From contig BCGN01000012.1 of NCBI GenBank assembly GCA_001599295.1, forward strand, positions 248,001 through 312,000: 64,000 bases of DNA. The letters are read 5' to 3'. The position numbers and the translations under genes were made by a program. This DNA comes from Sporopachydermia quercuum. Taxonomy: Eukaryota > Ascomycota > Sporopachydermiomycetes > Sporopachydermiales > Sporopachydermiaceae. The notes beneath the pieces were generated by a model. It worked only from the letters and a program-made list of their open reading frames with translations, had not been told where the DNA came from and ran no database searches. Shown in pieces: positions 33,727 to 35,450 of this stretch. Each line of letters begins with the position of its first letter. Positions within the stretch are counted from its first letter, which is position 1.

Positions 33727-35450
33727 TTATGGCACATTGAATAAAGAGAATTGACGTACGATACCAGGTCCATATTCTTCGTAATCTTGTTTGGTATGGC
33801 AGTAACTCTTGAACTCCGCAGTTTGAGCTAATAAACTGCCACCAAACCAAACAGCGTTTCTCTGCTTCTTATGACTGATAACCGACACTTCAACACCAGT
33901 ACTCTTAGCTTTTGATAAAGCTTCAGATTTATGAATACGGGCATCGACAAGTGTCCTTATGTCGCGCTGTAATCTTCTACCGAAATCCTTAAACATAGTG
34001 GAGCCTCCAGACAAAACGATATTTTTATATAAACCTTTTCTGACATCAATTGGGGAGCTTTGGATTACTTGATCAACGATTTTAGGAAGAGGAGTTAAAA
34101 AGTCTGACGATTGGATTTCTGGGTTGAAAAATATTTCAGGAGCAAGAAATCTTTCATAACCAACATCAACTGTAACTCTTCTGTCTAATCTTTGATCAAC
34201 AATGTACTTTTGGAATCTATCAGGTTCACGATCAAATCTGTTAAACTCCTTCACAATATCTGGACAAACATAACAAAATTCTTCCTTGATTTTTTCTGCG
34301 GTTTTCAAACTTGTATCAGGTTCACCTCGGTCTCTTAGTAAAGTTTGGATAAAAGATGTAATATCTCTTCCTGCAATTGGGATATTCTTGATGGCTGAAG
34401 CAATCACATAACCTTCTGCTACAGGTATTACATGAGTAACACCATCACCAGAATCAATGACAGTACCGGTTAAAGAACGATCATGAACCTTGGATGATGT
34501 CCAAGAAGCAGCCAGTGCTAACACTGCTTGAACAGCAATATATAGGCCAGCACAATTGAATGATTCAAACATAATTTCAGCTGTATTTTCTCTGTTTTCT
34601 GGAGCATTCAATGGTGGTTCAGTAAGTAGAAAGTAATGGTCTTCTGGTTCACATCTTAAGTACTTGAAAATTGAATTCTCCCAGAATCTTTCCATATGAT
34701 CCCAGTTATCAACTTGACCATGTCTGATAGGGTAGTTCAATCCATAACCTATATTGTTTGTTAGGATGCAAAAATAAAATTATTGCTAGTAAATTGGCTG
34801 TATACTCAATTATAACATACCAGGACCTGATGCAGCCGCCAAAGCTTCATCACCAATATAGAAATCTAAGTCTGCAGTCCCTTTGTTGGCAATATTCCCA
34901 CCGCTACCAGAGCTTTTTGATTTTGATTCTTGTCTTGTAGCAATCGTAGTGGGGAAAATAAACGATGGAGAGTCGTTACCGGCAAAACCAATTTTGGTCA
35001 ATCCCGTACCGCTATATATAGTTAGTATCTATACTTAGGGCTAATTGAGTCGGTAGTACTCTTGTCTTAACTTTAATTTTGGTTGATTATCGTTGATTTT
35101 GATGAAAAGGTGTAATAGTACTAGCAATCTAATGTATGAACATTCAAAATGTATAGTTCTTCTGATAGAATACATCATTCTACTTCATTGCACATACACT
35201 ATGACAAGTGTCGTTTCATTATTTTCGTCAATCCCTAATCCTTCGAAAACAATAACAATTTTTTCAAACAATAGCTCAGTAACTTACTTGTCTAAAAGAA
35301 ACAGGGGTTAGTAAAGTGTGAGAAAGACTCTGATAGCTATTCCTAATCGGTTTCTCATCAATATTTCAAGCTCGGATAACTAACTCCTCTTAATTAATAT
35401 CAACAATCAAACATACCCATCACAACGGCAGGTGCACCCATGTTAGCCAT
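33727..35450 (-). CDS. ARP3: Actin-related protein 3 (Arp2/3 complex), four exons including a 4-nt exon
   Basis: The exons are 35450-35417 (34 nt), 35291-35288 (4 nt), 35011-34821 and 34748-33727; joined they give 416 residues. The product reads [20 protein letters not shown] at the start, then [20 protein letters not shown]-type actin-fold blocks such as [17 protein letters not shown] and [16 protein letters not shown], and ends RQFSLFNVP, all as in yeast Arp3. Arp3 and Arp2 form the nucleating dimer for branched actin in endocytic patches. Introns are 125, 276 and 72 nt; donors are GTATGT, GTAAGT and GTATGT; branches are TTTACTAAC, GATACTAAC and TCCTAAC. Only inclusion of the 4-nt exon keeps frame and yields the conserved MDNGTG. 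An Ala/Ser/Lys-rich insert near residues 42-58 parallels, but is shorter than, that of S. cerevisiae. Confidence 0.96.
35288..35291 (-). other. ARP3: Micro-exon of 4 nt (ACAA) in ARP3
   Basis: On the minus strand the context is TTTACTAAC, a pyrimidine-rich stretch ending TTTTAG, then ACAA, then GTAAGT. It joins ATG-G from exon 1 and C-GGT from exon 3 into codons Met-Asp-Asn-Gly. Without it the frame is lost. Confidence 0.85.

Follow-up and report, generated by a model that had tools for sequence, protein, structure and literature searches.

Can an exon of four nucleotides be a genuine part of a budding-yeast gene? This question is raised by the ARP3 locus of Sporopachydermia quercuum, which is situated on the minus strand of the stretch of DNA analysed here (64,000 nucleotides at its full length, called the window). 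A preliminary description had placed the tetranucleotide ACAA as an internal exon, with donors, a branch motif and an acceptor around it. The sequence was read directly, and every element of this anatomy was found at the position given for it. The features are collected in Table 1, together with short exons of other genes in the same genome. The interval of 405 nt between exons 1 and 3 contains TTTACTAACCCCTGTTTCTTTTAG/ACAA/GTAAGT. GT-AG introns with consensus signals flank ACAA on both sides, as in the class of microexons (internal exons of at most 15 nt). Ambiguous bases (N) are present in the window at positions 788, 2726, 4666, 12399 and 35873.

Table 1. Predicted gene structure of ARP3 (positions of the window) and candidate short exons in other genes of the genome (positions of the respective locus).
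Feature	Position	Strand	Remarks
ARP3 exon 1, coding part, 34 nt	35417..35450	minus	Start codon at 35450; letters ATGGCTAACATGGGTGCACCTGCCGTTGTGATGG; ends ATG-G, then GTATGT
ARP3 intron 1, 125 nt	35292..35416	minus	GTATGT...TTTTAG; ends TTTACTAAC-CCCTGTTTCTTTTAG
ARP3 intron 1 branch site TACTAAC	35307..35313	minus	Read in the sequence; presumed use as branch
ARP3 exon 2, 4-nt microexon ACAA	35288..35291	minus	Directly 5' of GTAAGT
ARP3 intron 2, 276 nt	35012..35287	minus	GTAAGT...TATATAG; ends ATACTAAC-TATATATAG
ARP3 intron 2 branch site TACTAAC	35021..35027	minus	Read in the sequence; presumed use as branch
ARP3 exon 3	34821..35011	minus	Begins C-GGT; sequence and alignment to Arp3
ARP3 intron 3, 72 nt	34749..34820	minus	GTATGT...ATATAG; absent from the preliminary description
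ARP3 exon 4, long, last	33727..34748	minus	Runs through the stop codon, which ends at 33727
Beta-tubulin paralog (divergent), candidate 1-nt exon G	L013:1356-1785 (G000:C1; exon 2 at 1370963, L013:1525)		Introns of 132 and 259 nt
UNC50 homolog, 4-nt exon AAAC	L049:1313-1611 (G000:C3); exon L049:1519-1522		Introns of 68 and 88 nt; completes YYHKQTKNSWARDDPS
Biotin-dependent carboxylase, exons of 21 and 8 nt in succession	L073:1221-1851 (G000:C1)	minus	Complete NKILVANRGEIAIRIFRTAHE
VPS13 homolog, 9-nt exon (GSY)	L030 (G000:C8)	minus	Product aligns to a solved relative across the exon
VPS29 homolog, 15-nt exon (DLPAK)	L011 (G000:C1)	minus	Product aligns to a solved relative across the exon
ACT1, 14-nt internal exon	L016:815-1647 (G000:C2)		Introns of 691 and 114 nt; 7-residue peptide predicted on skipping
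Main beta-tubulin, 14-nt exon	L038:340-1626 (G000:C2)		Early coding exons of 12, 36, 14, 42 and 55 nt
Proteasome beta-1 (PRE3-like), 15-nt second exon	L028:1384-2443 (G000:C6)		Five introns

The joined protein matches Arp3 over its full length. Its top match among solved structures is 3dwl_A (E 2.4e-212, 708 bits), while the best chain called actin reaches 259 bits. A database search, in which 7,990 candidates were scored and 4,683 passed, points in the same direction: the naming sources among the best 120 of the 4,683 mostly give Arp3 or actin family. In a tree of 40 rows (the query and 39 of 160 database proteins) the query is located beside the Lipomycetales rows, and no starred set contains it. 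The gene has a single CTG codon, at Leu155, and this position is Leu in 23 of the 23 other rows of the alignment, which favours standard CUG decoding.

The product of exon 1 aligns with the N-terminus of other Arp3 proteins. It should be considered whether the 5' part of the gene is degenerate or misassembled, with the functional start elsewhere, as five ambiguous bases occur in the window and one of them is located 423 nt upstream of the ATG. However, none of the five is inside ARP3, and exon 1 encodes the Arp3 N-terminus that would be expected, with the frame intact. We regard this explanation as extremely improbable.

When ACAA is included, the predicted junction letters are GTGATGGACAACGGTACG and the product is an Arp3 of 416 residues with the motif MDNGTG, in which the microexon provides two bases each to the codons of Asp12 and Asn13. 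This phosphate-binding loop is intact only with ACAA included, and the Pfam Actin score rises from 290.3 to 296.7 bits once the Asp-Asn pair is restored. When ACAA is skipped (predicted junction letters GTGATGGCGGTACG), the frame shifts and only 15 residues are encoded. All one-intron joins were enumerated (GT or GC to AG, introns of at least 40 nt, acceptor up to the start of exon 3 at 35011), and six of them are in frame, none with MDNG. With the outer splice sites fixed and a single internal exon of at most 199 nt allowed, 13 internal exons are in frame, and MDNG is obtained from ACAA alone. The claim that this exon is the sole route to both the frame and MDNGTG was thus borne out, and no other in-frame junction giving MDNGTG was present among the enumerated joins.

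In recursive splice sites (zero-length or RS exons) the acceptor and the donor are almost abutting, which suggests stepwise removal of the intron. In contrast to these, the four ARP3 nucleotides encode part of the protein and would have to stay in the mRNA. A recursive site with nothing kept in the mRNA does not fit, since the frame needs ACAA to be retained.

A simpler structure with one intron deserves closer attention. If the donor were located 4 nt further (35412, GTTTGA), ACAA would be part of the intron, the predicted junction letters would be GTGATGGGTATCGGTACG and the protein would begin with MGIGTG. This join is in frame, leaves the acceptor of exon 3 unchanged and is the sole one-intron join that keeps the start of exon 3. 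However, the donor GTTTGA is off consensus and stands beside a perfect GTATGT. The conserved Asp is lost and the Actin profile score falls by 6.4 bits, and the arrangement TACTAAC...TTTTAG/ACAA/GTAAGT is left unexplained. On this evidence, and on that of the deposited proteins described below, the one-intron structure is very unlikely.

To assess the contribution of chance, the 405-nt interval was shuffled 20,000 times with its dinucleotides preserved. MD(0-3 residues)NG was restored by an AG/X/GT exon of 1-13 nt in 3,023 shuffles. In 8 shuffles such an exon also had TACTAAC no more than 40 nt upstream, and in 0 it had both this TACTAAC and a GT[AG][ATC]GT donor. In the genome of 16.4 Mb, the strict pattern TACTAACN(3-30)YAGNNNNGTAWGT has 2 matches as compared with 3 for the control. 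As this pattern is at the genome background, the claim rests on the location in the interval and on the motif restored, not on the rarity of the pattern. We consider it very probable that ACAA is a genuine 4-nt exon of ARP3, presumably included in the mRNA.

The N-termini of deposited Arp3 proteins provide an indirect view of the same site. Among the best 120 of the 4,683 database proteins, 104 have Asp-Asn (DN) and the other 16 differ: eight read MG[N/I/T/D]GTG, seven read xSGTG and one lacks the N-terminus. In the MG-x-GTG proteins the variable residue is Asn (three), Ile (three), Thr (one) or Asp (one). A 4-nt misreading of the donors GTATGT, GTAAGT, GTACGT and GTGAGT before C-GGT gives MGIGT, MGNGT, MGTGT and MGDGT, respectively, so that these residues are the values to be expected from annotation that misses the exon, with ATGG/GT(AT, AA, AC or GA)GT donors and C-GGT. 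The Ser before GTG would arise from the tail of intron 2 translated through AG/C-GGT. Both signs are found together in P0062 (MGKL...HSGTG), a reading expected if translation passes through the ATGG/GTAAGTTA donor and AG/C. The protein P0001 (L. arxii) has MDSGTG with the Asp kept, and fits the artefact model only with a shifted acceptor. The form MGIGTG itself is found in the deposited proteins of three yeasts (P0003, P0007 and P0107), which might be taken in favour of the one-intron structure. However, the odd residue across the yeasts is exactly what the 4-nt donor shift gives for the common donor types.

Two region-restricted searches, of which all 72 matches of one and 120 of the 198 matches of the other were used, gave 40 further proteins among the matches listed, all 40 with DN. 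This brings the DN proteins to 144 of 160 (the best 120 of 4,683 and the 40 further ones). They may reflect an intronless gene or correct annotation, as the gene structure cannot be read from the protein. The ARP3 gene of S. cerevisiae is not known to contain an intron. Nine yeasts are named as owners of odd N-termini: four Lipomyces species, Kockiozyma, Babjeviella, Trichomonascus (in the taxonomy, Blastobotrys) vanleenenianus, Cyberlindnera (in the taxonomy, Williopsis) jadinii and Saccharomycopsis crataegensis. The taxonomy of six of them was looked up, and these belong to the five orders Lipomycetales, Serinales, Dipodascales, Phaffomycetales and Ascoideales. A search for the DNA of relatives matched 17 stretches of genome contigs, by a peptide pattern, and 22 stretches of viral contigs, none of which comes from a relative. 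Read backwards, these annotation artefacts in proteins suggest that the exon was probably inherited from an early budding-yeast ancestor.

The splicing of so small an exon may be considered from the spacing of its signals. The exon is probably constitutive. It codes for the conserved Asp-Asn in the phosphate-binding loop of the actin fold. Both introns have their own strong donor and TACTAAC, and each could be recognised across the intron (intron definition). In intron 1 the A at 35308, presumed to be the branch nucleotide, stands 16 nt away from the acceptor G, and its distance to the donor of intron 2, counted to the first base, is 21 nt. At such short spacing a collision of the U1 and U2 particles would be expected. 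The two introns would then most likely be removed one after the other, given the 21-nt spacing, and the four bases would belong to a longer exon once the first removal had taken place. Intron 1, the upstream one, is transcribed first. Sequential splicing of the ARP3 introns is likely on this analysis.

It is also conceivable that a real exon is subject to regulated inclusion, with skipping leading to the frameshifted frame of 15 residues and a decay-prone mRNA, so that the amount of Arp3 would be set by splicing. Skipping of ACAA does shift the frame, and the available passages of PMC2911113 report both NMD and exon skipping in Yarrowia. However, the consensus donors and TACTAAC of both ARP3 introns differ from the suboptimal sites of the mostly skipped Yarrowia exon described in those passages. 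The folding of the RNA from exon 1 up to and including intron 2 is unremarkable (z -1.14, with 8 of 100 shuffles equally or more stable), and no structure bridging the splice sites was supported. Regulated inclusion therefore appears improbable, and constitutive use of the exon is preferred.

Other genes of the same genome were found to contain comparable exons. Further genome patterns for tiny exons gave 27, 25, 7, 28 and 21 matches against 28, 52, 9, 81 and 42 in the respective controls. The counts are never above the controls, and thus most of the pattern matches are due to chance. The 67 loci from all pattern searches except the one with 28 matches (some matches being repeated) were screened by frame and protein in both orientations, and this screen recovered the ARP3 exon. 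From the search with 28 matches L080 alone was screened (G000:C8:1209500-1211100). It carries ACTAAT...CGTAG/ACAA/GTAAGT, the core of the ARP3 exon, in an intergenic position; it is a chance match and calls for caution. For the loci L019, L022, L023, L033, L034, L055 and L078 the protein is not vouched for and exons are not claimed.

The smallest candidate is the single G of the divergent beta-tubulin paralog. Its exon 1 ends GCA-G, followed by TACTAAC...TTTGTTAG/G/GTATGT and by exon 3 beginning A-AAT-CAA, and the single base completes GGA within GQAGNQ. The product aligns without gaps over its first 42 residues to the beta-tubulin 5w3f_B (E 1.4e-169). With donors taken from codon 9 on, the sole one-intron alternative uses a weak GTGATT donor and adds an Ile. 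In the UNC50 homolog, skipping of AAAC shifts the frame, and the product matches Pfam UNC-50 (E 7.7e-68). A solved relative of this protein was looked for and none was found; the exon is supported by the Pfam match and by the surrounding stretch, which we take to be conserved. For each of these two loci, 0 of 20,000 shuffles matched when both the branch and the donor had to be present. The carboxylase, which is probably pyruvate carboxylase, has its two short exons within the conserved VANRGEIAIR stretch, and the donor of the 21-nt exon is GTAGGT. As one of a series, the ARP3 exon becomes more believable and less singular.

Tiny exons have been described in other organisms. In Yarrowia lipolytica the gene YALI0E34170g has a 4-nt internal exon seen in two cDNAs (Mekouar et al. 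2010, PMC2911113, in the passages available). Both this gene and ARP3 are multi-intron genes of budding yeasts with a 4-nt internal exon, predicted from sequence in the case of ARP3. The Yarrowia exon is validated by cDNA, and the available passages do not name the product of YALI0E34170g. If that gene is ARP3, the present exon is a further instance of one already validated. The view that exons this small are exceptional in yeasts, expressed in the preliminary description, was overstated in the light of this Yarrowia exon and of the further tiny exons in the same genome.

Human MPC1 has a constitutive 4-bp exon, for which the accessible part of PMC9929638 reports lariats indicating that both flanking introns are removed separately, even at 0 nt. 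Like the ARP3 exon, it has 4 nt, which is not a multiple of three, and the lariat data agree with sequential or coupled recognition. The authors of that study favour exon definition, with branch points far from the acceptor (-68/-64 or -63); for ARP3, with its presumed branch A at 16 nt, intron definition would apply. In plants, according to the passages available from PMC8831610, conserved microexons including 4-nt and 1-nt ones were missed by annotation, are supported by RNA-seq and RT-PCR, and are absent where the gene has turned intronless. They resemble the ARP3 exon in their small size and probably also in their conservation, in being overlooked by annotation and in their loss from intronless genes. 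Exons of 1 nt are described, in the parts of the texts at hand, for Fusarium CYP621A (PMC12940212) and Arabidopsis APC11 (PMC4674806). The former was deduced from an interruption of the frame within a conserved motif, the same route as for the ARP3 exon, but in a different gene and for 1 nt instead of 4. The 1-nt tubulin candidate is closer to these two exons than the ARP3 exon is.

No published report of the 4-nt ARP3 exon, its spread or its effect on yeast annotation was found in a search that covered mainly the openly available literature. The available portions of PMC11323467, PMC13309789, PMC4022394, PMC4202332, PMC6351623 and PMC11121469 make no mention of it, and those of PMC8476143 contain no matching passage. 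The kind of exon is thus already known; its occurrence in ARP3, its spread and its annotation effect had no counterpart in the literature searched.

Taken as a whole, the data incline us, with some reserve, to the view that the 4-nt exon of ARP3 goes back to the root of the budding yeasts and has been kept in at least five orders, and that genomes like this one routinely splice exons of almost zero length, down to 1 nt in the beta-tubulin paralog, by successive intron-defined reactions. If this is true, the Arp3 proteins deposited for many yeasts would lack the ATP-binding Asp-Asn merely through annotation, and one mechanism would account for a set of odd Arp3 N-termini in the public databases. 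ARP3 would be a cytoskeletal gene with active-site codons split over an exon so short that standard gene finders miss it, and in yeast annotation it is worth checking frame gaps within invariant motifs. The candidate exons of 1, 4, 4, 8, 9, 14, 14, 15 and 15 nt in conserved genes form a natural series, which is suited to asking how the yeast spliceosome treats an acceptor and a donor that nearly touch, and whether the order of splicing is fixed.
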